This document shows, one piece after another, positions 5,873-20,586 of a DNA stretch of 36,551 nucleotides. A program made the position numbers and the translations under genes. The notes beneath the pieces were generated by a model that made no database searches, had not been told where the DNA came from, and saw only the letters and a list, made by a program, of their open reading frames with translations. This DNA is from Burkholderiales bacterium (GTDB taxonomy: Bacteria > Pseudomonadota > Gammaproteobacteria > Burkholderiales > SG8-41): the NCBI GenBank assembly GCA_030833315.1, contig JAURHM010000034.1, positions 1-36,551 of the forward strand. Reading direction: 5' to 3'. Within the stretch, counting starts at the first letter, position 1. Each line of letters starts with the position of its first letter.

Positions 5873-7213
5873 TTACTTTTTAGCGACTGCTTTCTTCGCT
5901 TTTTTCTTTACGGTTTTTTTGGCGGTAACAGGCTTGGACCTGGCTTTGGCCGGTTTGCTGAGCCTGAAGCTGACCACGCGTTTTGCCGCCGGTTTCATGC
6001 CTTTGGTCAGCACGCCGCGAAGCCAGGCCCACGATGCCGGACCCCACTCGCGTTCATTCTTCGCGGCGATATGGCCGTCATCCGGATAGACGCGGGCGAC
6101 GCGGCCGTCGGCCGGGCCGGACTCCAGCAGCATGTAGAGATTGCCGATGGGGGTCAGGTGATCGATCTTGCCGTTGACCAGGTACATCGGCATGGTCAGG
6201 TTCTTCAGCAGGTCCTGGTCTTTCAGCGACCAGCGCAGGAAATCCTTGCGCTGGTCTTCTTCAGTGACTTCCTTCAGCGGCGGACGCGTGCCGCGCGGGC
6301 CGAACCAGTTGGTCTTGGCGCGTTCGTAGGCTGCAGCACGCCATTCGGCGCGTTCTTCCGGAGAACCCCAGTAACCGGCGCCGCCCGGGGCGCAGGCGAT
6401 CAGGCCTTTGATGCGCGCGTCATGTGCAGCGAGGCGGATCACCCACAGGCCACCGCGGCTGACGCCAAAGGCGCCGATGCGGTTGCCGTCGATCTCGGGA
6501 CGTTTTTGCAGAACATCCAGTGCAGCCTGCCAGGCAACGACGGATTCCGGCGCGTGGGGGAAGGTGGTTTGTCCCGTTCCCGGGGCATCGACGACCAGCG
6601 CAGCCATGCCCTGTGACAGTGCGCCTTCAGCGTATTTCTCGCGGTCTTCCTTGTACATGTCAGCCCCGCACATCACCAGCACGGCCGGCACCTTGTTCGA
6701 TTTCGATGCGCCTTTCGGCAGGCGCAGAAAACCCGTCGCCTTCATGCCGTTCTTGGTGACGACAATGGTTTCCGGCGGATCCGGCAGCAGCGCAGCCGAT
6801 TTCTCATAGCAACGCAGATAGTCTTCATACGACTGCGCCTTGATCGGACTCATCGTCGGCGGGCAGATCGGCGATCCCGACCAGTACGGTGACGGGAAAC
6901 GCGCGAGGCTGTAATAGGTCTTGGCCTGGACATAGGCCTGGCGTGCGCCGGTCTTGTCCTTGCGGGCAAGCAGGGCGTCGCCTTTCTTTTCATACTCGGC
7001 GCCCACCGCACTCCATACCGGCACCCAGTCTTCGTCCTCGGTGCTTTTTATTTTCGCGACGGTGTCGATCAGCAACTGCATGTCGTCGATCAGGTTGAAC
7101 CAGCGACGGTAGAAACCGCCGATGGCGACGACAAACGGATCTTCGTCCGCACGCATCGGCAGCGATGCGAGAATGGCGGCGCGGTCTTTGCTCCCTTGCT
7201 GGACTGCTCTCAT
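5873..7213 (-). CDS. Alpha/beta hydrolase (FrsA/dienelactone-hydrolase-like) with Lys/Ala-rich C-terminal tail
   Basis: A 446-residue serine hydrolase. Residues 1-145 form a helical cap domain; the alpha/beta-hydrolase core follows. The nucleophile is Ser252 in GVSRGG, the acid is probably Asp351 in NGKIDHLTP, and the base His381 in DDGHIAAK. This layout resembles FrsA-like esterases and other bulky-substrate hydrolases. Residues 406-446 form a very basic tail rich in AKK and KKAKKAVAKK, like histone-H1-like bacterial proteins, and unusual for a hydrolase. The start is ATG 7213, just after GGGGGAG; an in-frame TTG 12 bases upstream contains that ribosome site and was rejected. There is no signal peptide. 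The gene is single and converges on the sirtuin gene. Substrate unknown. Confidence 0.85.
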   Translation of the reverse strand: MRAVQQGSKDRAAILASLPMRADEDPFVVAIGGFYRRWFNLIDDMQLLIDTVAKIKSTEDEDWVPVWSAVGAEYEKKGDALLARKDKTGARQAYVQAKTYYSLARFPSPYWSGSPICPPTMSPIKAQSYEDYLRCYEKSAALLPDPPETIVVTKNGMKATGFLRLPKGASKSNKVPAVLVMCGADMYKEDREKYAEGALSQGMAALVVDAPGTGQTTFPHAPESVVAWQAALDVLQKRPEIDGNRIGAFGVSRGGLWVIRLAAHDARIKGLIACAPGGAGYWGSPEERAEWRAAAYERAKTNWFGPRGTRPPLKEVTEEDQRKDFLRWSLKDQDLLKNLTMPMYLVNGKIDHLTPIGNLYMLLESGPADGRVARVYPDDGHIAAKNEREWGPASWAWLRGVLTKGMKPAAKRVVSFRLSKPAKARSKPVTAKKTVKKKAKKAVAKK

Positions 7214-7338
7214 GTACTCCCCCAATGGATGGCGTGATTTCGGTTTCGTTCGCGCATGGCGCGAGGTCGATATTCTGGCGCACAGCCAATTTGGGCGCTA
7301 TGGCATTGCGTCGATCTCCCGGCGGTGAGACGGCATTT

Positions 7339-7481: not shown

Positions 7482-8480
7482 ATGTCTCAAGTTTCACGCC
7501 TGTCCGCACCGGCCTTTTGCCTTTGTGCTGCAATGTCCTGTGCGGTTTTGTTTGCTGCATCTGTTCTGTCACTGCCGGCTGCCGCCGCTTATCCCGAACG
7601 GCCGATCCGCATCATCGTGCCCTTCCCGCCTGGAGGCGCATCGGACGTCATTGCGCGGTTGTTTGCCGACAAATTCGCTCAGACCTGGGGGGTGACCGCG
7701 GTGGTCGATAACCGCACCGGCGCCTCCGGCATTATCGGCACCGACATTGTGGCCAAGGCGCCTGCCGATGGTTACACCCTGGGAATGGTTGCACTGAGTT
7801 TTGCCATCAACCCGGCGATCCACAAGCTGCCTTACGATTCGGATCGCGATTTCACTTTCGTGACCATCGCCGCATCCAATCCGCTGGTGCTGGTGAGCAA
7901 TCCCCAATTTCAGGCCAGGTCGGTGAAGGAACTGATCGATATGGCCAAGACCAAGCCCGACGGCGTGACATTTGCGTCCAGCGGCACCGGCACTTCCCCG
8001 CATATGAGCGCGGAGCTGTTCAAGCTGATGACCGGCGTCAAGATGCTGCATGTGCCATACAAGGGCAGTACTGCGGCGCATCCCGACCTGTTCGCCGGAC
8101 GGGTCAATGTGATGTTCGATACGCTGATCGCAACCTTGCCGCACATCAAGGGCGGTCGCCTGAAAGTGCTGGGCATCACGTCGAAGACGCGTTCCGCGGA
8201 ACTGCCGGATGCGGTGCCGATTGCCGAGACCGTGCCCGGTTATGAATCGACGTCATGGGTGGTGATGATGGGGCCGTCGAAAATTCCCGCTCCAGTGGTT
8301 GAAAAGTTGAATGCCGAATCCGTGCGCCTGCTGGTGCTGCCGGATGTGAAAGAGCGCGTCGCCCGTCTGGGTGCGGTGCCCGTGGGCAACAGCGCTTCTG
8401 AAGCGCGCAAGTTCATTCACGCCGAACTGGCAAAATGGACCAAGACGGTCAAAGCTGCGGGGATCACCAGCGGTAACTAA
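7482..8480 (+). CDS. TTT (Bug/TctC) substrate-binding protein, first of four in tandem
   Basis: A 332-residue periplasmic binding protein with a signal peptide (about residues 1-35, ending LPAAAA before YPERPIRIIV). Family motifs occur in order: PFPPGGASDVIAR, DNRTGASGIIG, PADGYT, HVPYKGS and VPGYEST. The start is ATG 7482, after GGAGGGG; the frame is open further upstream without a ribosome site. It is the first gene of a tight plus-strand run, with the next Bug gene only 15 bases downstream. It is the most canonical of the four and has the usual ligand loops, so it should bind a carboxylate. No permease gene is nearby. Confidence 0.93.
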   Translation: MSQVSRLSAPAFCLCAAMSCAVLFAASVLSLPAAAAYPERPIRIIVPFPPGGASDVIARLFADKFAQTWGVTAVVDNRTGASGIIGTDIVAKAPADGYTLGMVALSFAINPAIHKLPYDSDRDFTFVTIAASNPLVLVSNPQFQARSVKELIDMAKTKPDGVTFASSGTGTSPHMSAELFKLMTGVKMLHVPYKGSTAAHPDLFAGRVNVMFDTLIATLPHIKGGRLKVLGITSKTRSAELPDAVPIAETVPGYESTSWVVMMGPSKIPAPVVEKLNAESVRLLVLPDVKERVARLGAVPVGNSASEARKFIHAELAKWTKTVKAAGITSGN

Positions 8481-8495
8481 ACAGTGGGGGCGATC

Positions 8496-9476
8496 ATGCA
8501 GGGCACGACGGCGTTACCGAAGGGTTGTAAAGTCTGGTTGCTGATGTCGCTGATCCTGGCGGCTCCCGCCTGGTCGGCTTATCCCGAACGCCCGGTGCGC
8601 ATGATCGTGCCGCAGGCGGTTGGCGCTTCGACCGATAACGTCGCCCGTATTGTCGCCACCGAGCTCGCGCGCGAACTCGGCCAGCAGGTGGTCGTCGACA
8701 ACCGGCCGGGCGGTGCGCTGCAGCTCGGCATGGAACTCACCGCAAGGGCTTCGCGCGACGGTTACACCATCGGTTACGCGCCTATCGGTTCATTGGCCAT
8801 CGGCCCGCATCTGGTCAGCAAACCGCAGATCGATGCACTGCGCGAACTGGCGCCGGTGGGGCAGACCATCACCGGTTACATGATGGTGCTGGCCAGTCCG
8901 AAGTCACCGTTCCGCAATATGCGCGAAGTCATCGACTACGCAAAGCAGAATCCCGGCAAGCTGTTCAATGCCTCCTCGAGCAACGGTTCGCCCGGGCACA
9001 TCGGTTTCGAACTGCTGAAGAATATGACCGGCACGCAGATCGTGCATGTGCCTTACAAAGGCGGTCCTGCCGCCATCGCCGATCTGATGTCCGGGCAGGT
9101 GCAACTGATGATGGAAGGCCTCAATTCCGCCAGCGGCCATGTCAAGGCCGGCCGCGTGCGCGGTCTGGCGGTGACCGGCGCCAAACGGTCGGCGGTGTTT
9201 CCCGATGTGCCGACGCTGATCGAATCCGGTGTTACCGGTTACGAGGCGACGACCTGGCACGGCGTGGTGGTTCCCGCGGGCACCCCCAAGGAAATTGTTG
9301 CTTTGCTCAATACCCGGCTTAACAAAGCGGTGCATTCGCCGGTGGCCAGCGAACGCATACTCGCGCTGGGTTCGGAGCCGCTGACCGGAACGCCGGAAGA
9401 ATTCTGGACGCTGGTGCGCACGGATTCCGCGAAATGGGCGGAAGTGATCCGAAAGGCCGGCGCGAAAATCGATTAA
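8496..9476 (+). CDS. TTT (Bug/TctC) substrate-binding protein, second of four in tandem
   Basis: A 326-residue binding protein with a signal peptide ending APAWSA before YPERPVRMIV. The first ligand loop reads PQAVGASTDN instead of the usual PFPPGGxxD, and the second reads DNRPGGALQLG rather than GAxGxIG, so both walls of the pocket are altered relative to its neighbours although the Asp is kept. Later motifs are regular: HVPYKGGPAAIADL, VPTLIESGVTGYEATTW and PAGTP. ATG 8496 follows GTGGGGG at a good distance; the GTG at 8484 is part of that ribosome site. It lies 15 bases after the first Bug gene and is very probably in the same transcript. The loop changes suggest a different ligand from its neighbours. 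Confidence 0.92.
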   Translation: MQGTTALPKGCKVWLLMSLILAAPAWSAYPERPVRMIVPQAVGASTDNVARIVATELARELGQQVVVDNRPGGALQLGMELTARASRDGYTIGYAPIGSLAIGPHLVSKPQIDALRELAPVGQTITGYMMVLASPKSPFRNMREVIDYAKQNPGKLFNASSSNGSPGHIGFELLKNMTGTQIVHVPYKGGPAAIADLMSGQVQLMMEGLNSASGHVKAGRVRGLAVTGAKRSAVFPDVPTLIESGVTGYEATTWHGVVVPAGTPKEIVALLNTRLNKAVHSPVASERILALGSEPLTGTPEEFWTLVRTDSAKWAEVIRKAGAKID

Positions 9477-9521
9477 GCAGTTTGTGACACGCGGTTTATG
9501 AAACGACGGGAGGGGAGTTTC

Positions 9522-10505
9522 ATGGATTTCAAGACGATCAAAAGCGCTGCGGCCGCGTTGTGGCTTGCGGTCTTGTTTCCGCTGCACGTATTCGCATCGG
9601 CGCCGGCGGATTTTCCATCCAAACCGGTGCGTTTCATCGTGCCTTTTCCGCCCGGTGGCACGGTGGATCCGCTGGCGCGGCTGATAGGGTCGCGGCTGTC
9701 GAACGCGCTGGGCCAGCAGTTCATCGTCGACAACCGCACCGGCGGCTCCGGCACTATCGGCACCGGCATCGCGGCGAAGGCCAACCCTGACGGTTACACC
9801 TATGTGTTTGTGTTTGATACACATGCGGTGAATCCCGCGCTGATTCCGAACCTGCCCTTCGACACGCTGAAGGACCTCGCCCCGGTGATGCTGGTCGGGC
9901 GCGCGCCCTACGGCATCATCACTCATCCTGCCAAGCCGTATAAAACCATGGGTGACATCGTCAGGGCGGCGAAAGCCCGGCCCGACACGCTGACCTATGG
10001 TACGGTCGGTGCCGGCAGCCTTGGTCATCTTGCGCTGACGCTGGCCGGGCAGAGCGGCGGCTTCAGGCTCGTGCATGTGCCGTATAAGGGTGGCGGTCCG
10101 ATGACGGTGGCGGTGATGGGCGGGCAGATCGACATGGGAATCGGTTCCACCGCGCTGGTGACGCCTTTTGCCAACGACGGTCGCATGCGCGTGCTGGCAA
10201 CAACGGGTGATGCGCGCGCCGCGACCCTGCCCAATGTGCCGACGCTGATCGAGGAGGGTTACAAGGATGTCACCGCTTATGCCTGGTGGGGCATTTTTGC
10301 GCCGGCGCGTACACCGCCGGCAATCATCAACAAGCTGCACGGCGAAATGGTCAAGGTGTTGAACCTGCCGGATGTGCGTCGTCACCTTGGCGAGCAGCTG
10401 GGGATGGAACTGATGGTCAGTACGCCCTCGGAACTTCAGAAGTGGACCGTCACCGAGTACCAGCGCTGGGGCAAGGTGATCCGGGACAACAACATCAAGC
10501 CCTGA
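9522..10505 (+). CDS. TTT (Bug/TctC) substrate-binding protein, third of four in tandem
   Basis: A 327-residue binding protein. The signal peptide covers about residues 1-25 (AVLFPLHVFASA), followed by DFPSKPVRFIVPFPPGG, DNRTGGSGTIG, PDGYTYVFVFDTH, HVPYKGGGPMTVAVMGG and VPTLIEEGYKDVTAYAWWG. ATG 9522 is chosen because GGGAGGGG sits just upstream; the in-frame ATG 24 bases earlier lies before that ribosome site. Spacing to the neighbours is 45 and 31 bases, consistent with one operon. All canonical ligand loops are present. A large antisense open frame across this gene is a shadow of its codon structure. Confidence 0.93.
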   Translation: MDFKTIKSAAAALWLAVLFPLHVFASAPADFPSKPVRFIVPFPPGGTVDPLARLIGSRLSNALGQQFIVDNRTGGSGTIGTGIAAKANPDGYTYVFVFDTHAVNPALIPNLPFDTLKDLAPVMLVGRAPYGIITHPAKPYKTMGDIVRAAKARPDTLTYGTVGAGSLGHLALTLAGQSGGFRLVHVPYKGGGPMTVAVMGGQIDMGIGSTALVTPFANDGRMRVLATTGDARAATLPNVPTLIEEGYKDVTAYAWWGIFAPARTPPAIINKLHGEMVKVLNLPDVRRHLGEQLGMELMVSTPSELQKWTVTEYQRWGKVIRDNNIKP

Positions 10506-10536
10506 TCACAAGGGCAACACAGAGGAGAGGAACGCC

Positions 10537-11508
10537 ATGAAACATGTTGCACAAATCATCCTGATGGCCGCATTGCTCGCGGCCGGAATGGTCCATGCGC
10601 AGAACTATCCGGGAACACGGCCGGTGCGTATTCTCGTCGGTTATACGCCGGGCGGCGGCGTCGATACCACCGCGCGCATGATGGCGCAGGCGCTGGGCGA
10701 ATTGTGGGGCGGCAATGTGCTGGTGGAGAACCGGCCTGGCGCGGCGGGCAATATCGCGACCGAAGCGACGGCAAAGGCGCCGCCCGACGGTTACACAATG
10801 GTGTTGTGCAATATCGGCTCGCATGCCATCACCCCGGCACGTTTTGCCAAGCGGCTGACCTACGATCCCATCGGCGATTTTGCATTTCCGATCAAAATCG
10901 GCGGCGTGCCCAATATTTTCATGGTGCACCCGTCATTGCCGATCAGGAATCTTCAGCAGTACATCGACTACGCACGCAAAAATCCCGGCAAACTGAATTA
11001 CGGTTCGTCCGGTGTCGGCGCTTCGCCCCATCTTTCGATCGAGCTGCTGAAGTCGATGACCGGCATCAATATCGTACATGTGCCGTATAAAGGCGCTGCG
11101 CCGGCGCTGGCGGATGCTATGAGCGGTCATATGGAGTCTTCAGTTGGCAATCTCGCGGGTGCACCGCTGGCTGCCGTGAAATCCGGTCGCGTGCGCGCGC
11201 TCGGTGTGACCTCTGCGGTGCGCAGTGCGCAGCTGCCAGACGTACCGACGTTCGAGGAGGCCGGGGTCAAGGGTTACGACGTCACTGGCTGGTACGGCTT
11301 GTGCACGCAGTCGAAGGTGCCACAGCCGGTACTGGCCAAACTGCATGCCGACGGTGCGAAGGTGCTGGCGGGACCGCTGAAGAAACGCCTCGAGGACCAG
11401 GGCGTCACCGTGGAACAGGCAACGCCGGAACAGTTTGCCGCGCATGTCAAAAACGAGATCGCCAAATGGACCAAAGTGGTGATCGAATCAAAACTTGAGG
11501 GTGATTGA
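10537..11508 (+). CDS. TTT (Bug/TctC) substrate-binding protein, fourth of four in tandem
   Basis: A 323-residue binding protein with a signal peptide ending MVHA before QNYPGTRPVRILV. Motifs: GYTPGGGVDTTAR (Tyr-Thr instead of the usual Phe-Pro in loop 1), ENRPGAAGNIA, PPDGYT, HVPYKGAAPALADAMSG and VPTFEEAGVKGYDVTGWYG. An AGAGGAGAGG ribosome site precedes ATG 10537. It is followed after only 15 bases by the alpha gene of a split TPP decarboxylase, which makes it the Bug protein most likely to deliver that enzyme's substrate. The four tandem proteins differ clearly in signal peptides and loops, so they are not a recent amplification. Confidence 0.93.
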   Translation: MKHVAQIILMAALLAAGMVHAQNYPGTRPVRILVGYTPGGGVDTTARMMAQALGELWGGNVLVENRPGAAGNIATEATAKAPPDGYTMVLCNIGSHAITPARFAKRLTYDPIGDFAFPIKIGGVPNIFMVHPSLPIRNLQQYIDYARKNPGKLNYGSSGVGASPHLSIELLKSMTGINIVHVPYKGAAPALADAMSGHMESSVGNLAGAPLAAVKSGRVRALGVTSAVRSAQLPDVPTFEEAGVKGYDVTGWYGLCTQSKVPQPVLAKLHADGAKVLAGPLKKRLEDQGVTVEQATPEQFAAHVKNEIAKWTKVVIESKLEGD

Positions 11509-11523
11509 AGGTAAGGATCAGCA

Positions 11524-12042
11524 ATGAACGATGCCTCCAGAGCTCACCTGAGCCCCGATGTTGTTCTGGGCCAGCTGAAAAAACACGGCGTGACCCACGT
11601 TGTATGGCTGCCCGACAGCGAAACCAACTGGCTATACCTGCTGATGAAAGCAGAACCGTCGCTGACGCTGGTGGCGGTGCCGCGCGAAGGCCTGGCATGT
11701 TCGGTGGCGGCGGGCCTCGCGGTCGGCGGTGCGGTGCCGGTGGTGCTGATCCAGAACACCGGCCTGATGGAGTCGGGTGATTCCATCCGCGGCTGGCTGT
11801 TCGGACTCGAAATCCCGGTGGTATTTGTCGTCGGCATGCGCGGCTGGACGCGTCACGGTGCGCCCACCGCGGATACCGCATCGGTTTATACCGAGCCCTT
11901 CCTCAACGCTTTCCGCATCAACTATTACCTCGTCGAAAGTGACGCTGATGCCGACCGCATCAGTCTCGCCTTCAATGAAACCAAGAAAACAAAACGACCG
12001 GTGGCCGTACTCGTTGGCGACGAATACCAGTTCAACGGCTAG
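11524..12042 (+). CDS. TPP-dependent decarboxylase, alpha (PYR-domain) subunit, sulfopyruvate/phosphonopyruvate type
   Basis: A 172-residue protein corresponding to the N-terminal pyrimidine-binding domain of thiamine diphosphate enzymes, encoded as a separate subunit as in sulfopyruvate decarboxylase (ComD) and related phosphonopyruvate decarboxylases. The conserved glutamate that activates the cofactor is probably Glu55 in VPREGLACSVAAGLA. Other recognisable parts are LPDSETNWLYLLM and LIQNTGLMESGDSIRG, the latter typical of this subfamily. The ribosome site is AAGGA before ATG 11524. The beta subunit gene starts 13 bases after the stop, so the pair forms one enzyme. Expected reaction: decarboxylation of a 2-oxo acid carrying a second acidic group. 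The true substrate is not shown; no sulfonate or phosphonate genes are adjacent. Confidence 0.85.
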   Translation: MNDASRAHLSPDVVLGQLKKHGVTHVVWLPDSETNWLYLLMKAEPSLTLVAVPREGLACSVAAGLAVGGAVPVVLIQNTGLMESGDSIRGWLFGLEIPVVFVVGMRGWTRHGAPTADTASVYTEPFLNAFRINYYLVESDADADRISLAFNETKKTKRPVAVLVGDEYQFNG

Positions 12043-12055
12043 GAGCGCACATTAC

Positions 12056-12643
12056 ATGTTTCATACTGAAGATTTTCTCAAGGCCTTCCTGCCGCATCGC
12101 GGCGACGCCATCGTGGTCCCCGGCCGTGGCGGCAAACACTGGGTCAAGATCAGCGACAAGCCGGATCTCGATTTGCCGATGGGTGATCCGGCGATGGGCG
12201 GCCACGCGGCGTTTGCCTTCGGTCTGGCAATGGCGCAGCCCAAGCACCGGGTGGTGCTGTTTGATTCCGAAGGTGATGTGCAGATGGGCTTGGGCATCCT
12301 GCTGACCATTGCCGAGCAGAAGCCGTTGAACTTTTACCATTTCATGCTCGACAACGAGTGTTACGCCACCACCGGCGGCCAGCCGGTGCCGAACGCCAAA
12401 AACGTCAACTATGAAATGCTGGCGAAGGGTGCCGGTTATCCGCGCACCTACTCGTTTACCGAACTCGATGCTGCGGTCGCCGCGCTGCCGGAAATTCTCG
12501 GTAAACCCGGTCCGGTATTCGTGGCGATGAAGGTCCATGCCGATGTCGAGAACAAACCGATCGGTGAACGCGTGCGCTGGCGCAAGCGCTCCTGGGCCCA
12601 AGTCATCGGTGACCTGCAGCGCAAGATCGGCATCGCCGCGTAA
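12056..12643 (+). CDS. TPP-dependent decarboxylase, beta (PP-domain) subunit, sulfopyruvate/phosphonopyruvate type
   Basis: A 195-residue protein equal to the C-terminal diphosphate-binding domain of TPP enzymes. The metal/diphosphate motif is G73-D74 (SEGDVQMGLG) followed about 25 residues later by D99-N100-E (FMLDNECYATTGGQP), and the GDPAMGGHAAFAFGLA helix is typical of ComE-like subunits. The chosen ATG 12056 follows the alpha stop by 13 bases, with AGGAGCG upstream; an upstream extension in this frame overlaps the alpha gene and was rejected. It needs the alpha subunit for activity. The Bug gene just before the pair suggests that imported 2-oxo or precursor acids are the substrate, but this is inference. 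Confidence 0.88.
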   Translation: MFHTEDFLKAFLPHRGDAIVVPGRGGKHWVKISDKPDLDLPMGDPAMGGHAAFAFGLAMAQPKHRVVLFDSEGDVQMGLGILLTIAEQKPLNFYHFMLDNECYATTGGQPVPNAKNVNYEMLAKGAGYPRTYSFTELDAAVAALPEILGKPGPVFVAMKVHADVENKPIGERVRWRKRSWAQVIGDLQRKIGIAA

Positions 12644-12687
12644 TTTCCGGCTGCGCCAATCAATCATACATTCCGGAGTGCCAGAAA

Positions 12688-13197
12688 ATGGATTTCAATG
12701 AAGCACGCATGATGGCCCGTTACGCGCAGTGGTCAAACAAGGTGATGTTCGACGCGGTCGCGGCCCTGCCTGAAGAAGAAATCGCCAAGCCGCGGCCGTC
12801 ACTCTTCAAGAACATGGTGCACACGCTGAACCATATCTACGTCATCGACCGCATCTGGCAGGCGCACCTTGAAGGGCGTGATCACGGTTATGATGCGCGC
12901 AACACCAAGGATCATCCGCCGCTGTCCGGGCTGTGGACGTTGCAGCAGGAGATTGATGCCTGGTACGTCGATTGGGCGGACCGGCAGACAACGGCCAGTC
13001 TGGGCGAAACCGTGAATTACATGCTGATCGGCGGCAATCGCGGCGTCATGACGCGCGGTGAGATCCTGCTGCACGTCGTGATGCACACCAATTATCACCG
13101 CGGTTATGTCGCGCAGATGATTTATGACATCCCGGGCCGCCGGCCGCCGTCGATGGATTTGCCGGTTTACATGCGCGAAGGCTGTTCCGGCGTTTGA
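12688..13197 (+). CDS. DinB-family protein (four-helix bundle, putative metal-dependent)
   Basis: A 169-residue protein with the DinB fold. Metal ligands expected for the family are visible: His49 in TLNHIYVID, and His133 and His137 in VVMHTNYHRGY. The N-terminal MARYAQWSNKVMFDAV is typical of the first helix. DinB-fold proteins include thiol transferases (mycothiol, bacillithiol, glutathione) and maleylpyruvate isomerases as well as uncharacterised members. It lies 44 bases after the TPP decarboxylase beta gene, on the same strand, so an accessory role in the same pathway, perhaps thiol-dependent isomerisation, is possible. Nothing in the sequence links it to DNA damage. Function unproven. 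Confidence 0.88.
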   Translation: MDFNEARMMARYAQWSNKVMFDAVAALPEEEIAKPRPSLFKNMVHTLNHIYVIDRIWQAHLEGRDHGYDARNTKDHPPLSGLWTLQQEIDAWYVDWADRQTTASLGETVNYMLIGGNRGVMTRGEILLHVVMHTNYHRGYVAQMIYDIPGRRPPSMDLPVYMREGCSGV

Positions 13198-13323: not shown

Positions 13324-13758
13324 ATGGCCGAACGCACGATCAATGACATTATTGCCGGACAGAAGCTGCTGACTGCACCGGGCAGCATGACCGTGGCGGA
13401 AGCCGCGCGGCAGATGAAGCAGCGTAACGTCGGCGCAATGATGGTGGTCGACAACGGCCGCCTGGTCGGCGTGTTCACTGAACGCGATGCGCTGTTCCGT
13501 GTGGTCGCCGCCGGCCTCGACAGCAAAACCACGCCGCTGAGCGTGGTGATGACCGCCAATCCCAAATGCATCACACCCGACCAGTCCTTCGCCCATGCGC
13601 TGGCGATCATGCATGACGGCCGTTTCCGTCATTTGCCGGTGGTCAAGGACGGCTGGCCCATCGGCATGCTGTCGGTGCGCGACGCGCTGGGGCCGGAGCT
13701 GGAAGCTTTTGTCTACGAACTGCTGCGCCAGGAGCAGGTCAGCCAGATTCTCGCCTAG
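13324..13758 (+). CDS. CBS-domain-pair protein
   Basis: A 144-residue protein made of two tandem CBS domains, at about residues 8-65 and 72-135, with the usual endings VGVFTERDALFRV and IGMLSVRDALGPE. Such stand-alone Bateman modules bind adenine nucleotides or similar ligands and act as regulatory or energy-sensing subunits. CGGAGG precedes ATG 13324. A 126-base gap separates it from the DinB gene, so it may have its own promoter. Its stop codon and that of the convergent MFS gene share the bases CTAG (13755-13758), leaving no room for a terminator between them. No partner is evident. Confidence 0.9.
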   Translation: MAERTINDIIAGQKLLTAPGSMTVAEAARQMKQRNVGAMMVVDNGRLVGVFTERDALFRVVAAGLDSKTTPLSVVMTANPKCITPDQSFAHALAIMHDGRFRHLPVVKDGWPIGMLSVRDALGPELEAFVYELLRQEQVSQILA

Positions 13759-14945
13759 GCGGGGTTTGATTTGCCGCGTCTTGCGGCAAACAGGCAGTAG
13801 AGCGCGACGGACGCCGGTACCACCAGCGATGCAAAAGCGATGCCGTAGCTGCGCGTCAGCGCATAGACGTTGGCAAAAATGATCGGGCCGATGAATTTGC
13901 CGACGTTGGTGATCACCAGCGAGCCGCTGATCGCCAGACTCACCTGACCCTGCGGTGCCAGCCGTCCGACTTCGGCCAAGATGGCGCCGGGCCAGCAGCC
14001 GGATGTTGCACCGAGTACGGCAAACAGCAGATAAACGATCAGCAGCGGGGTGCCGGCATGGATGGTGAGGCCGCCGAGCGTAAACACGGTCAGTATTCCG
14101 GCATTCCAGGCGAGCACGCGTGCCGTGTCGCCGACGCGATCGGTGATCCAGCCGATCAGCACGCGGCCCGAAGCGCTGGCAACCTGCACCACGGTCAGCA
14201 CGGTGCCCGCCGCCACCAGGTTCATGCCCAGGGTTTCGACGCAGGCGACCACAGCAAAAGTTGCCGCGCAGAACTGCGCCCAAGAGAAACAGCTGCCGGC
14301 GATGGTGATCAGCCGCAGCTCATGTTGTTGCCAGATGGCAATGGCGCCGGCGAGCGGATTCGGCGTCGCCACCGGTGCATTGCGGTCGCGGTCGTCATCC
14401 CATTGGCGGCGGCCGCTTTGCATCAAAAACACCACGGCAAACAGCAGCAGTGCGCTGAGCACCACCGCCCAGCGCCAGCCGGCGTAAATCGTCACCGCCG
14501 GCGCAATCAGTGCGGCGAGCATGCCGCCGGCGGGGATGCCGGTCTGGTGAATGGAGAACACCGTGCTTCGCCGCTGCGGCGGGGTGTAACGCATCAGCAG
14601 GTGCGAGGCTGACGGCGTGATCATCCCGTAGCCGAGTCCGATCACCAGCGAGCCGATGATCAGAAATAGGCTGTAGGGAATCAGCAGCACCAGCATGCCG
14701 GTGGCCGTCAGTGCGTGGCCCAGCTGGTTGGTGCGCGCCGCACCGTAACGGCGTGTAGTGCTGCCGAGCAGCGTCAGCGTTACCACCATGCCGAGGCTGA
14801 CCAGACTGATCTGGTAACCGATCAGTGACGGGTCGAAGCCGTAATCGTGTGCGACCGCCGGCGCCACTGCCGGCAGCACCAGCACCGCCATCGATGCAAA
14901 CGAATGTCCCGCCAGCAGGGCCGGCAGCAACAGGAACTGCAGCAT
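13755..14945 (-). CDS. MFS transporter
   Basis: A 396-residue major facilitator superfamily protein with about 12 membrane segments. Recognisable stretches are YQISLVSLGMVVTLTLLGS in the first helices, YGMITPSASHLLMRYTPP (helix 4-5 region, typical of CynX/NimT-like permeases), and FSIHQTGIPAGGMLAALIAP. A cytoplasmic loop with SGRRQWDDDRDR separates the halves. It lies 13 bases downstream of the carboxymuconolactone-decarboxylase-like gene and probably shares its transcript, suggesting uptake of an organic anion for that pathway. The start ATG lacks a strong ribosome site, consistent with coupling to the gene upstream. Substrate unknown. Confidence 0.9.
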   Translation of the reverse strand: MLQFLLLPALLAGHSFASMAVLVLPAVAPAVAHDYGFDPSLIGYQISLVSLGMVVTLTLLGSTTRRYGAARTNQLGHALTATGMLVLLIPYSLFLIIGSLVIGLGYGMITPSASHLLMRYTPPQRRSTVFSIHQTGIPAGGMLAALIAPAVTIYAGWRWAVVLSALLLFAVVFLMQSGRRQWDDDRDRNAPVATPNPLAGAIAIWQQHELRLITIAGSCFSWAQFCAATFAVVACVETLGMNLVAAGTVLTVVQVASASGRVLIGWITDRVGDTARVLAWNAGILTVFTLGGLTIHAGTPLLIVYLLFAVLGATSGCWPGAILAEVGRLAPQGQVSLAISGSLVITNVGKFIGPIIFANVYALTRSYGIAFASLVVPASVALYCLFAARRGKSNPA

Positions 14946-16489: not shown

Positions 16490-16521
16490 CCGAAAAATTC
16501 CATAAAGTGTCCGGAGGCATC

Positions 16522-17505
16522 ATGAGGTTCCTGCAAATCATTGCGGTTATTGCGCTGGCGACCGGTGCGGTCGCACAAGCGGCACAGAAGGGCGGTCCGA
16601 CGCCGGCCGGCGAATATCCGACCAAGCCGGTGCGCATTCTCGTCGGCTTCACGCCCGGCGGCGGTCCCGATATCACGGCGCGTTATCTCGCACAGAAACT
16701 CACCGAAGAATTCAAGCAACAGGTCATCGTTGACAACCGGCCGGGCGCCGGCGGCACCATCGCCGCCAATCTGACCGCAACCGCCAACCCCGACGGCTAT
16801 ACGCTGCTGTCGGTGTCCTCGGCGCATGCCGTGGCGCCGGCGATTTACGACAAGCTGCCGTATGACGCGCGCCGCGACCTGATGGGCATCTCGCTGTCGG
16901 CAGTGTCGAAGTATGTGCTGGTGACTTCGCCCTCCGGCTTTCGTTCGCTGAAAGATCTGTTTGCCGCGGCTCGCGCCAAACCGGGTTCGATGAATTTTTC
17001 CTCGGCTGGAATCGGCAGTGGTACGCATTTCGCCGGTGAACTGCTGAAAAGCATGGCGAAACTCGATGTCGTGCATATTCCCTTCAAGGGCATCCCCGAG
17101 GCCCTGGCCGAAGCGCTGACCGGCCGCGTGCAGTTTTTCATGGCGCCGATTGCCAATGCCGTGCCGCAGGTGCGCGACGGCAAGCTGCTCGCCTTGGGCG
17201 TCTCGTCGCTGAAGCGTGATGCGCTGCTGCCGGATGTGCCGACCATCGCCGATTCCGGCGTGCCCGGTTATGACGCGATCCTGTGGTTCGGTCTCGTTAC
17301 CACCGCGAAGACACCGGCGCCGGTGATTGCCGAACTCAACCGCGAGGTCAAACGCATTCTCAGCGAAGACGACGTAAAGCGGCGCTGGGCACCGATTGGC
17401 CTTGAGCCGTCACCGACCACGCCGGAAGGTTTTGACAAGCTGATTGCATCCGACATCGCGACATTCACCAAGCTGGCCAAGGCCGGAAATATCAAAGCAC
17501 AGTGA
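16522..17505 (+). CDS. TTT (Bug/TctC) substrate-binding protein
   Basis: A 327-residue periplasmic binding protein. The signal peptide is about residues 1-18 (ending VAQA), followed by a linker of about ten residues rich in Gly and Pro before EYPTKPVRILVGFTPGGG. Next come DNRPGAGGTIA, PDGYTLLSVSSAH, HIPFKGIPEALAEALTG (Pro-Phe in place of the usual Pro-Tyr), VPTIADSGVPGYDAILWFG and a normal C-terminus. CCGGAGG precedes ATG 16522; the GTG at 16507 overlaps that site. It is the first gene of a run with an alpha/beta hydrolase (11-base gap), lipoprotein and ABC exporter. The hydrolase probably acts on the bound compound or a derivative, but this is inference. Confidence 0.93.
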   Translation: MRFLQIIAVIALATGAVAQAAQKGGPTPAGEYPTKPVRILVGFTPGGGPDITARYLAQKLTEEFKQQVIVDNRPGAGGTIAANLTATANPDGYTLLSVSSAHAVAPAIYDKLPYDARRDLMGISLSAVSKYVLVTSPSGFRSLKDLFAAARAKPGSMNFSSAGIGSGTHFAGELLKSMAKLDVVHIPFKGIPEALAEALTGRVQFFMAPIANAVPQVRDGKLLALGVSSLKRDALLPDVPTIADSGVPGYDAILWFGLVTTAKTPAPVIAELNREVKRILSEDDVKRRWAPIGLEPSPTTPEGFDKLIASDIATFTKLAKAGNIKAQ

Positions 17506-17516
17506 GAGGAAAGACC

Positions 17517-18308
17517 ATGAAAATCAAAACCAACGGTATTGAAATCAACTGTGTCATTGAGGGCGACGGCCCCTGGGTGACGATGTCACATTCGCTGGCC
17601 TGCAATCTGTCGATGTGGGATGACCAGGCGAAACTGCTGGTATCCAAGGGTTACAAGGTCTTGCGTTTCGACACCCGCGGCCACGGCGCCAGCGACGCAC
17701 CGGATGTGACCTACACGCTGGAGCAGATGGCCGACGATCTGCACGGACTGTATGCATCCCTGGGCGTCAAACATTCGCACTGGATCGGCCTGTCGATGGG
17801 CGGCATGATCGGCGAAACCTATGCGCTGAAATATCCCGGCGTGTTCAGCAGCATGATCCTCGCCGACACCACCAGCCGCCGGCCGCCCAATGCCGAGCAG
17901 ATGTGGGGTGAGCGGGTGAAGATGGCGCGGGAGCAGGGCATGGGTGCGCTGGTCGACAGCACGCTGGGGCGCTGGTTCACCGATCCCTTCCGCAAAGCAC
18001 AGCCCGCCGTCATGGAAAAAATCGGCAACGACATCCGCAACACGCCGGTGGCTGGTTTTGCCGGCTGCTGTGAAGCCATTGCCAAGATTGATGTGCTTGA
18101 TCAGTTGAAGGACATCAACTGCCCGGCGCTGGTCATCGTCGGCGATCAGGATCACGGCACGCCGCCGGAAATGGCGCGTCAGATCCACTCCAACCTGCGC
18201 GGCTCGGAACTGCTGATCATCCCGTCGGCGGCCCACCTGTCCAATGTCGAGCAACCGGCGGTATTCAACAAGGCGATGCTGGATTTCCTCGGCAAGGTGA
18301 AAAACTGA
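17517..18308 (+). CDS. Alpha/beta hydrolase (3-oxoadipate enol-lactonase-like)
   Basis: A 263-residue alpha/beta-fold hydrolase resembling PcaD-type enol-lactonases and related esterases. The oxyanion region reads MSHSLACNLSMWD, the FDTRGHGASDAP loop is strongly conserved in this group, the nucleophile is Ser93 in GLSMGGMIG, the acid is in VGDQDHGTPP and the base His in AAHLSNVEQP. There is no signal peptide. ATG 17517 follows GAGAGGAAAG; the frame is open to a GTG at 17502 that overlaps the previous stop. Its own stop overlaps the start of the lipoprotein gene by one base. Position after a Bug binding protein suggests hydrolysis of an imported lactone or ester in a beta-ketoadipate-like route, although the other genes of that route are absent here. 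Confidence 0.9.
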   Translation: MKIKTNGIEINCVIEGDGPWVTMSHSLACNLSMWDDQAKLLVSKGYKVLRFDTRGHGASDAPDVTYTLEQMADDLHGLYASLGVKHSHWIGLSMGGMIGETYALKYPGVFSSMILADTTSRRPPNAEQMWGERVKMAREQGMGALVDSTLGRWFTDPFRKAQPAVMEKIGNDIRNTPVAGFAGCCEAIAKIDVLDQLKDINCPALVIVGDQDHGTPPEMARQIHSNLRGSELLIIPSAAHLSNVEQPAVFNKAMLDFLGKVKN

Positions 18309-18793
18309 TGCGGGCGCGAACGCTCGCTGTTGCGGCGTTCGCGCTGGTTTCCGTGTTTGCGCTCGCGGGATGTGATGGGCTGCTCCGCGGAGAAGAAGTT
18401 GCCCGCATTCCGCTGCCGCGCAAGGCCGACGGCGGTTATGCGCCGGTGCGTATTCTGCTGAAGGCGGACATGAGTCCCGTGGCTTTCACGCTGTATGCCG
18501 ATTTTGCCTGGGGCAAGCGGGAAGAGCATGGTCGCTGGAATACCTACCGGGTGACCTTGCGCGGCAGCGACGGCACTACCAAGATCGGCGAATTCCAAGT
18601 CAACAGTCCCGAATTGCCGCCGGTCGAATCCTCGGGTCCGCCGTCCTTGCTGGTGCAGCCCATGCTGCAGGTCGACATTCCGGCCGACGGGGAATATGAA
18701 ATCGAAGTGGCGGCAGTGAAGCCAGCGGAAGTCACGCTGGAAGCGGCGCAGCTTGGTGTGCGCATGCACGTACCGCGCCTGCCGCGAATCTGA
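18308..18793 (+). CDS. Putative lipoprotein of unknown function
   Basis: A 161-residue protein beginning with a lipoprotein signal peptide: basic MRAR, a hydrophobic stretch, and the lipobox LAGC with the lipidated Cys at about residue 22. The mature part is rich in predicted beta strands (FTLYADF, TYRVTLRG, YEIEVAAVKP), probably a small beta-sandwich at the membrane surface. I do not recognise a family. Its ATG overlaps the stop of the alpha/beta hydrolase (TGATG), so translation is coupled, and the ABC exporter begins 11 bases after its stop. Residue after the Cys is Asp, which in many Gram-negative bacteria favours retention in the inner membrane, so an accessory role next to the ABC protein is conceivable. 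Confidence 0.8.
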   Translation: MRARTLAVAAFALVSVFALAGCDGLLRGEEVARIPLPRKADGGYAPVRILLKADMSPVAFTLYADFAWGKREEHGRWNTYRVTLRGSDGTTKIGEFQVNSPELPPVESSGPPSLLVQPMLQVDIPADGEYEIEVAAVKPAEVTLEAAQLGVRMHVPRLPRI

Positions 18794-18804
18794 GATGGTG
18801 ACAG

Positions 18805-20586
18805 TTGAACGCCGCTGATCCTGTCGCAGTGAAAGGCGATGTCGCCCAACTGCGCCGCCTGATACGTTTTCTGCAGCCGTATCGCGGCCGCGTGATGATC
18901 GCGCTTGGCGCGCTGCTGGTCGCCTCCGGTTCTGTATTGGCCCTGGGGCAGGGGCTGCGGTTCGTCATCGATTCCGGTTTCGGCAGCGGCAATCCGGCGA
19001 TGCTCAATGCCGCGCTGGCCGGTGTGATTGCAATTGCCGTGGTGCTGGCCGTGTCCACCTACGCCCGTTTTTACCTGATGATGAGCACCGGCGAGCGGGT
19101 GATCGCTGATCTGCGTCGCGTGGTGTTTGCGCATGTGCTGACGCTTTCTCCGGCGTTTTTCGACAGTACGCGTACCGGCGATATCGTGTCGCGGGTTACC
19201 AACGACAGCGAGCAACTGCGCCAGGTCATCGGTTTTGGCCTGTCGATGTTGCTGCGCAATGGCCTGATGATGATCGGCGCGCTGGTGCTGCTGTTCACCA
19301 CCAGCCCGCGGCTGGCGCTCCTTATTGTGCTCGGCGTACCGGCCACGCTGATCCCGATCCTGCTGCTGGGTCGTTATGTGCGCCGGCTGTCGCGCAGCAA
19401 CCAGGACCGCGTCGCTGAAGTGTCGGCGCAGGTTGATGAGGCGATGCACGAGATCCGTACCGTGCAGGCTTATGGTCATGAGCCGCGGACGGCAGAGACT
19501 TTTGACGCCGCCATCGCGGCAGCCTGCGCTTCGGGCGTCGAACGCGTCCGCGTCAAGGCCTGGCTGATCGCATCGGTGATGCTGATCGCGTTCTGCGCCG
19601 TCGGCGTCATTCTGTGGATCGGCGGTCATGATGTTCTTGAAGGGCGACTCACGGCGGGGCAGCTCTCGGCCTTTGTGTTTTACGCCGGTGTGGTTGCCAG
19701 CGGTGCGGGTACGGTGTCGGAGGTCTGGGGTGAAATCCAGCGCGCCGCAGGCGCGACGGAACGCCTGATGGAATTGCTGGATGCAAAATCAGCGCTGACC
19801 ATAGCCGAGCCGCCTATTCAACTGCCGGCGAGGCCACGCGGCGAAATCCGTTTCGACAAGGTCAGCTTTGCCTATCCGACGCGCCCTGATGCACCGGCGC
19901 TGTCCATGCTGGATTTTTCCGTGCATCCGGGGGAGCGCGTGGCGCTGGTCGGTCCTTCCGGCGCGGGCAAGACAACGATTTTCGCGCTGCTGCTGCGCTT
20001 TTACGATCCGCAGCGCGGACGTGTGCTGATTGACGGCGCCGACCTGCGCCATTGCGAACCCCTGCAACTGCGAAAATCGGTTGCGTTGGTGTCCCAGGAC
20101 CCGGTGATTTTCGCGGCGAGTGTCGCCGAGAACGTGCGTTTCGGCCGACCCGAGGCCGGCCTCGACGAAGTGCGTGCCGCCTGTGAAGCCGCGCATGCAA
20201 TGGAATTCATCGAGCGTCTGCCGCAGGGGCTGGATACCGAGCTCGGTGAACGCGGCGTGCGGCTGTCCGGCGGTCAGCGCCAGCGGCTGTCGATTGCGCG
20301 GGCGCTGCTGGCGGACCGGCCGATCCTGCTGCTGGATGAAGCGACGAGTTCACTCGACGCCGAAAGCGAACGTCAGGTCGCGGCGGCGCTGGAGAGTCTG
20401 TCGCGCGGCCGCACCACTCTGGTGATCGCACACCGCCTGGCCACAGTGCGTACCGCCGACCGTATCCTGGTGCTGGAGCGCGGCCATCTGCATTCCACTG
20501 GCTCCCATGATGAACTGCTGCGCGCCGACGGGCTGTATGCCCATCTGGCGCGGCTGCAGTTCATGCATGAAGGTGCAGCGGTTTGA
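18805..20586 (+). CDS. ABC transporter, fused permease and ATPase (MsbA/exporter type)
   Basis: A 593-residue half-transporter that should work as a homodimer. The N-terminal 320 residues contain about six membrane helices of the exporter type; the C-terminal ATPase has Walker A GPSGAGKTT at 383-391, Q-loop Gln431, signature LSGGQ at 487-491, Walker B ILLLDE at 507-512 and His543 of the switch (IAHRL). It resembles lipid and drug exporters such as MsbA. The start is uncertain: TTG 18805, eleven bases after the lipoprotein stop and close to GGTGA, fits the conserved N-terminus best, and GTG 18829 is an alternative. It ends a run of Bug protein, hydrolase and lipoprotein, an unusual combination. 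Substrate unknown; lipid or xenobiotic export is possible. Confidence 0.92.
   Translation: MNAADPVAVKGDVAQLRRLIRFLQPYRGRVMIALGALLVASGSVLALGQGLRFVIDSGFGSGNPAMLNAALAGVIAIAVVLAVSTYARFYLMMSTGERVIADLRRVVFAHVLTLSPAFFDSTRTGDIVSRVTNDSEQLRQVIGFGLSMLLRNGLMMIGALVLLFTTSPRLALLIVLGVPATLIPILLLGRYVRRLSRSNQDRVAEVSAQVDEAMHEIRTVQAYGHEPRTAETFDAAIAAACASGVERVRVKAWLIASVMLIAFCAVGVILWIGGHDVLEGRLTAGQLSAFVFYAGVVASGAGTVSEVWGEIQRAAGATERLMELLDAKSALTIAEPPIQLPARPRGEIRFDKVSFAYPTRPDAPALSMLDFSVHPGERVALVGPSGAGKTTIFALLLRFYDPQRGRVLIDGADLRHCEPLQLRKSVALVSQDPVIFAASVAENVRFGRPEAGLDEVRAACEAAHAMEFIERLPQGLDTELGERGVRLSGGQRQRLSIARALLADRPILLLDEATSSLDAESERQVAAALESLSRGRTTLVIAHRLATVRTADRILVLERGHLHSTGSHDELLRADGLYAHLARLQFMHEGAAV

Follow-up and report, generated by a model that had tools for sequence, protein, structure and literature searches.

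Do four tandem genes for periplasmic binding proteins serve the decarboxylase whose genes follow them, or do they belong to a different unit? This question is raised by a locus of a Burkholderiales bacterium (GTDB lineage SG8-41, assembly GCA_030833315.1). The stretch analysed, called the window in the following, covers positions 1 to 36,551 of JAURHM010000034.1 and is contig C94 of a 3.10-Mb genome in 105 contigs. Four genes for TctC/Bug binding proteins (SBP1 to SBP4) lead here into the alpha and beta genes of a predicted split thiamine pyrophosphate (TPP) decarboxylase, followed by genes for a DinB-fold protein and a CBS-domain protein. A first-pass annotation of the sequence had proposed a multi-ligand capture array feeding one decarboxylation pathway. 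Comparison within the genus gave another answer: the array goes primarily with the DinB-CBS block, and with the decarboxylase in some species only.

Results

All genes from SBP1 to DinB are located on the plus strand. The four Bug genes (SBP1, 7482..8480; SBP2, 8496..9476; SBP3, 9522..10505; SBP4, 10537..11508; all PF03401) are followed by alpha (11524..12042; PF02776) and beta (12056..12643; PF02775), coding for the predicted PYR and PP subunits, and by the DinB-fold gene (12688..13197; PF05163). Open reading frames (ORFs) and Pfam matches confirmed the first-pass annotation in that four complete Bugs, the split TPP pair and DinB share one strand. The gaps of 15, 45, 31 and 15 bases given there for SBP1-SBP2, SBP2-SBP3, SBP3-SBP4 and SBP4-alpha are exact with its start codons; a GTG start at 8484 for SBP2 and an upstream ATG at 9498 for SBP3 are also possible. 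Alpha and beta are separated by 13 bases, beta and DinB by 44. The TctC domain was matched by all four Bugs with 212-232 bits (cut-off 27) and nearly full coverage of the profile, TPP_enzyme_N by alpha with 29.6 bits (cut-off 26.8), TPP_enzyme_C by beta with 52.2 bits (cut-off 21.9) and the DinB profile by the DinB-fold gene with 79.9 bits (cut-off 23).

SBP4 was searched in 21 genomes of the genus, and an orthologue was found in 18. The loci of these 18 carriers, window included, were compared with ORFs called by a simple longest-ORF rule and then checked by tblastn. SBP4, DinB and the CBS gene (13324..13758, plus strand; PF00571), the conserved end gene of the block, have orthologues of 64-100% identity in 18/18 loci; DinB is in two pieces in G024. 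They form a single co-directional block except in G027. SBP4 closes the array in every locus seen. SBP2 was found in 17 loci (partial in G024), SBP1 in 11 and SBP3 in seven; the number of Bugs per locus ranges from two to four, and all four occur together in 7/18 loci. On the divergent upstream flank, an FrsA-like alpha/beta hydrolase gene (5873..7225, minus strand; PF06500, 58.7 bits) was detected at >55% identity in 16 of the 18 loci; it was not found in the stretches of G012 and G024. The convergent flank, an MFS transporter gene (13755..14945, minus strand; PF07690), was present at >55% identity in 15 loci and not in G012, G021 and G022. In general, the block consists of FrsA-like (minus strand), two to four divergent Bugs ending in SBP4, DinB and CBS, usually followed by MFS (minus strand). 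The CBS gene and both flanks went unmentioned in the first pass.

Between SBP4 and DinB, the alpha-beta pair forms a facultative cassette that begins with alpha. It is present in ten of the 18 loci (window, G010, G015, G016, G017, G020, G026, G027, G028 and G029) and absent from eight (G012, G013, G014, G018, G019, G021, G022 and G024). The absence is clean, as the matches of SBP4 and DinB lie 19-75 bases apart in these eight loci. G014, G018 and G019 have all four Bugs without alpha-beta. Where the cassette is present, SBP4 stands immediately upstream of alpha in nine of ten genomes. In G027, Bugs 1, 2 and 4 were found on one contig, and TctA, alpha, beta and DinB are spread over two others; their order rests on contig ends that overlap by ~140 bases and meet inside DinB. 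The order of the window is not unique, since four Bugs, alpha, beta and DinB occur together in four of the 18 loci, window counted. The Bug row is an old shared feature of the genus and, because some relatives keep it without the decarboxylase, probably not a dedicated feeder of this enzyme.

In a tree of FrsA, DinB, CBS and MFS the presence of the cassette needs at least two changes. In the alpha-beta tree (62 rows, ten of them from genus loci) the cassette genomes branch as in the locus tree, except for G027. This fits a locus mostly inherited vertically, with a cassette that would have been inherited with it and lost later. Another alpha-beta pair elsewhere, named type-B (beta 55-57% identical), was found in five of the eight cassette-less genomes (L065, L066, L070, L091 and L095). 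MmgE/PrpD and PdxA-like genes lie downstream of it in all five, and an HpcH/HpaI gene is located upstream in four. Around these pairs Bugs, an amidohydrolase (where the contig reaches), an aconitase-like pair and a gene of the phosphoenolpyruvate-mutase family were seen. No genus genome with both the window-type cassette and a type-B pair was found. The type-B neighbourhood is suggestive of organic-acid catabolism, but it belongs to other genomes and was not used as proof of a pathway.

The first-pass annotation had excluded a recent duplication of the Bugs, and we agree. The four proteins are 34-41% identical pairwise; since each has genus orthologues of 66-95% identity, they are, judged from these values, old paralogues. 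For SBP3 the closest other match in its own genome is 41% identical (among the best 150 of 242 candidates). Recent tandem duplication was ruled out by these identities and by the positional orthologues. The atypical loops described for SBP2 were likewise found in an alignment of the four Bugs: PQAVGASTDN is present and the GAxGxIG loop is absent.

At least 150 TctC matches (the best 150 of 241 candidates) were obtained in the genome, compared with six TctA. A complete tripartite tricarboxylate transporter was not found; none of the six TctA genes is on the window contig, and no search for TctB was made. In 429 kb sampled from the genome, window included, 43 TctC genes were counted, one only as a fragment at the edge of the window. 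They are distributed over 31 singles, four pairs and one run of four, the window array. The run of four is more than chance. From 32 of the 43 sampled genes being among the 150 best-scored, a total of ~200 TctC genes (~65 per Mb) was extrapolated, with the contigs of the sample picked by hand.

It was also examined whether Bugs accompany alpha-beta beyond this genus. As background, 392 kb sampled from this genome outside the window gave 34 Bug matches, corresponding to 0.87 per 10 kb (33 Bugs by hidden Markov model count). This base rate comes from one genome, and the density in the others may differ. By chance, about half of the stretches as long as those scanned would be expected to hold a Bug. 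A Bug within 5 kb of alpha-beta was found in 9/9 loci of the window type, 10/12 of the groups g9 and g3, 4/5 of type-B, 13/20 other betaproteobacterial loci (mostly of the same family) and 0/24 loci of other classes and phyla. Outside the genus, the excess of Bugs near alpha-beta appears to be small or none.

The first-pass annotation had called the decarboxylase ComDE-type. This holds at superfamily level only. The ComDE models are the top NCBIfam matches of alpha and beta, but both scores are far below the curated cut-offs (alpha against TIGR03845, 68.5 bits, cut-off 147.95; beta against TIGR03846, 83.2 bits, cut-off 221.5). No match to TIGR03846 above cut-off was detected in the whole genome. 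Among sequences of the PDB, RhiEF is the best relative of both subunits, and AzcBC is matched weakly. With a model of alpha (mean predicted local distance difference test, pLDDT, of 79), Foldseek gave chains of AzcB and RhiE as best matches with template modelling (TM) scores of 0.71-0.77, AzcB being the top one.

Conserved residues were taken from alignments of 62 alpha and 72 beta sequences, window included, all from metagenome-assembled genomes (MAGs) of Betaproteobacteria, Alphaproteobacteria, Chloroflexota and one Terriglobia. Sequences with <45% identity (<50% for DinB) or <80% query coverage were excluded. Near-invariant motifs are PDSETN, REG, QNTG, GDS and RGxxRHG in alpha and DSEG, LDN and TTGGQPVPN in beta. 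Glu55 of alpha, which we take to be the catalytic Glu of the PYR domain, was conserved in 62/62 sequences, and PDSETN and RGxxRHG in at least 61/62. In beta, D70, S71, G73, D99 and N100 were found in 72/72 sequences and E72 in 70/72, with Asp in the other two. The SEG of beta (residues 71-73, window 12269-12277) aligns with GDG of RhiF and of a paralogue encoded in the genome of the window. Separate adjacent PYR and PP genes, the conserved Glu and the fold match indicate that alpha-beta belongs to the split TPP decarboxylases. Within these, the aligned sequences form a coherent clade that is recognisable by signature residues of its own.

The same genome encodes another split TPP pair that is more distantly related (L097 7954-10608) and reached 142.7 bits with the ComE model, below cut-off. 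It adjoins an aldehyde-dehydrogenase-like ORF, with a TauD-like ORF further on (both named by eye). Relatives of this pair with 34-41% identity are present in most family genomes.

Among MAGs of Chloroflexota (L074-L089), alpha-beta is followed in 10/16 loci by genes for DUF1800, DUF1501, NHL and a member of the menaquinone-biosynthesis family (partial in L078), often with divergent MFS and NtaA-type monooxygenase (LLM) genes. A pathway derived from these neighbours was set aside, as they have no link to the window. The records L032, L036, L056, L059, L060 and L090 are titled Bordetella parapertussis and are probably mislabelled environmental MAGs of Betaproteobacteria.

For the DinB-fold protein the assignment to the DinB/YfiT fold was supported by PF05163, a helical bundle and three His residues. 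H49, H133 and H137, of metal-site type, were conserved in 41/41 aligned sequences and presumably bind metal. The model (pLDDT 91) gave the best TM score, 0.72, with YizA (2qe9; E 1.4e-3), titled a putative metal-dependent hydrolase; no Foldseek match reached E <= 0.001. For proteins of thiol type the scores were 0.63 (mycothiol S-transferase 8f5v), 0.50 (isomerase 2nsf) and 0.39 (BstA 5wk0). Thiol transferases are only some of the DinB/YfiT proteins matched by fold.

Linkage of DinB and alpha-beta was counted in 74 genomes of the family. DinB orthologues were accepted at E <= 1e-43 (at 1e-5, 56 of the 74 genomes match), and close alpha-beta was defined by >=54% identity of beta (at 1e-10 all 74 match through the distant paralogue). 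DinB was present in 54 genomes, close alpha-beta in 50 and both in 43; the two adjoin each other in 24 of these 43, or in 25 with G027. These counts ruled out DinB as an obligate partner of alpha-beta. In genus g1 DinB is located downstream of alpha-beta; in g9 and g3 it lies upstream, and MmgE/PrpD intervenes in some cases. Counted over all 62 rows of the alpha-beta tree, the linkage requires two changes and falls into two separate clades. By parsimony, DinB would have become a neighbour of alpha-beta at least twice, on opposite sides. We take this linkage as a moderate sign of shared function.

Further downstream (16507-20586) the window contains another Bug, an alpha/beta hydrolase, a 161-amino-acid ORF without Pfam match and a fused ABC transporter. 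This gene order is retained in several relatives. Two promoter-like sites were counted in the sequence compared with 2.3 in shuffles, and 12 terminator-like sites, most of them within genes, compared with 7.0.

Discussion

On balance, we lean towards a catabolic locus of one betaproteobacterial genus, in which an orphan Bug array, a facultative decarboxylase and DinB form one operon; the member studied here has a very large surplus of orphan Bugs. SBP1 to DinB would be transcribed together. Each Bug would capture a small carboxylate in the periplasm and hand it to a shared TctAB permease encoded elsewhere. Alpha and beta would form a heteromer like RhiEF and AzcBC, with TPP at the interface, and would decarboxylate a 2-oxo or 2-imino acid. 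DinB may be a metal-dependent enzyme whose substrate is this product or a related compound which is also made without alpha-beta. By expression of several Bugs with one catabolic set the catch could become wider, and not all ligands would need to enter the decarboxylase.

Some observations weigh against this explanation. In G027, and only there, alpha is immediately preceded by TctA (L032 276-1769) and not by the Bug array, which could mean a dedicated permease in this genome. Trees built from SBP4 or SBP2 alone need three changes and are partly discordant with the locus tree; thus, Bugs may have been exchanged. Instead of repeated loss, one loss and a regain in G015 and G028 may have occurred. 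As beta carries SEG and not GDG, binding of TPP and metal is not certain, and Glu72 in place of the usual Asp might nevertheless coordinate the metal. The block has no evident gene by which a decarboxylation product would be used further. DinB and alpha-beta were not found together in 18 of the 43 family genomes with both, some of them on short contigs, which may conceal a linkage; DinB is kept without close alpha-beta in G014, G018 and G019. The role assigned to DinB here is a guess.

In the model of the first-pass annotation the array feeds one decarboxylation pathway and DinB performs a thiol-dependent step. It agrees with the tight co-directional packing and with the place of SBP4 right before alpha in nine of ten cassette genomes, but it is weakened by the eight of 18 loci with an array and no cassette, three of them with all four Bugs. 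In addition, two to four Bugs accompany the same enzyme, the frequency of Bugs near alpha-beta in other betaproteobacterial loci is about that expected from their density in the genome of the window, and in G027 Bugs and alpha-beta are on different contigs. We consider this model quite unlikely. Alternatively, alpha-beta and DinB could be the functional unit with incidental Bugs, DinB handling a reactive or cyclic product, e.g. from an imino or N-heterocyclic acid; this is possible, if rather doubtful. Bugs sit about every 10-15 kb in this genome, the unit is joined in two clades on opposite sides and in 24/43 genomes with both partners, and an alpha-imino acid decarboxylase is among the nearest solved fold relatives of alpha. 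Furthermore, a gene similar to ornithine cyclodeaminase (OCD)/ketimine reductase adjoins beta in L068 and L157, and in the 12 g9/g3 loci a class-III aminotransferase was found within 5 kb in four and a Rieske oxygenase in three. However, the genomes with DinB and alpha-beta apart, or with DinB alone, argue against such a unit. The 14 g9 genomes share their arrangement by descent, which leaves few events, and no DinB was detected within 5 kb in the five type-B, 20 other betaproteobacterial and 24 other loci. Of the 46 betaproteobacterial loci counted, only three have OCD in the vicinity of alpha-beta; a ketimine or imino-acid substrate is a hint from these three loci and the AzcBC match only.

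An assembly of Bugs, DinB and alpha-beta by chance and drift, with no common function, would agree with the ~200 Bugs extrapolated for the genome and with the varying content of the array. It is very improbable, as a neutral accretion does not account for SBP4, DinB and CBS being kept in all 18 loci, in one co-directional block except in G027.

Tandem Bugs as such are not new. According to the parts of PMC5994714 consulted, Rhodoplanes sp. Z2-YC6860 contains 434 TctC genes in 8.2 Mb (~53 per Mb), 48 pairs of them and longer arrays of three, four, five and nine genes, with three arrays of four in Table 1. The nine-gene array is mostly <50% identical, and only nine of the binding proteins belong to standard TctAB operons. 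Tandem divergent Bugs are thus a known kind, with arrays of four included, and the first-pass statement that Bugs usually occur singly overlooks these published arrays of two to nine. In contrast to Rhodoplanes, the array described here is genus-wide and has a fixed last Bug, DinB and CBS and an optional decarboxylase, a combination not described in the parts consulted. The extrapolated ~65 TctC genes per Mb may exceed the density in Rhodoplanes, the highest encountered in the literature consulted, with only six TctA genes. Bug functions are mainly unassigned, as stated in the abstract of PMC11452294; in passages of PMC8102459 tandem Bug data were not found.

The sources consulted describe ComDE and RhiEF (PMC12141560), LumKL (PMC12746152) and AzcBC (PDB title) as split TPP decarboxylases, each of the four with another substrate. 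Like alpha-beta, the phosphonopyruvate decarboxylase RhiEF (PDB 9iz3/9iz4; PMC12141560) consists of two small PYR/PP subunits, but the identity is ~25%, and RhiF has GDG where beta has SEG. In an alignment to 9iz3_A, the RhiE stretch after RG (GNDAVEHDIIG), which probably binds the substrate, is not kept in alpha; alpha has RGxxRHG and a conserved D and TE instead. The TPP-dependent alpha-imino acid decarboxylase AzcB/AzcC (PDB 9u8q-9u8s) shares the split subunits and the PDS motif, with 19% identity and TDG in AzcC compared with SEG in beta. LumK/LumL, a TPP-dependent heterocycle decarboxylase (PMC12746152), is by description also two-subunit and catabolic, with 20 and 23 kDa. The sulfopyruvate decarboxylase ComDE (TIGR03845/TIGR03846) is the best NCBIfam match, yet distant by the scores given above. 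The literature search gave no paper combining three of DinB, thiamine pyrophosphate, tripartite tricarboxylate and decarboxylase, and none with SAR202 together with sulfopyruvate decarboxylase. AzcB was absent among the matches listed for imino acid decarboxylase/azetidine, and the PDB codes 9U8Q and 9U8R and phosphonopyruvate decarboxylase were absent among the matches listed.

A bolder interpretation, which we regard as unlikely, is a new catabolic SEG-class of split TPP decarboxylases, with a cyclic imino or N-heterocyclic carboxylate as substrate. DinB would be its recurrent partner, recruited at least twice, and in this genus the pair would meet a ready-made orphan Bug array as a cassette. 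Alpha-beta with the SEG motif was seen in MAGs of Betaproteobacteria, Alphaproteobacteria, SAR202/Dehalococcoidia and one Terriglobia. If this is true, whole enzymes would be gained and lost behind a permanent periplasmic front for capture.

The alpha-beta clade itself is a further, uncharacterised group within the split TPP decarboxylases, marked by its own signature residues and a changed cofactor motif. Naturally occurring loci that differ in their Bug sets and in the presence of the decarboxylase may help to match the ligands of orphan Bugs to downstream enzymes, and the static picture of Bugs feeding an enzyme becomes testable through the comparison of loci.

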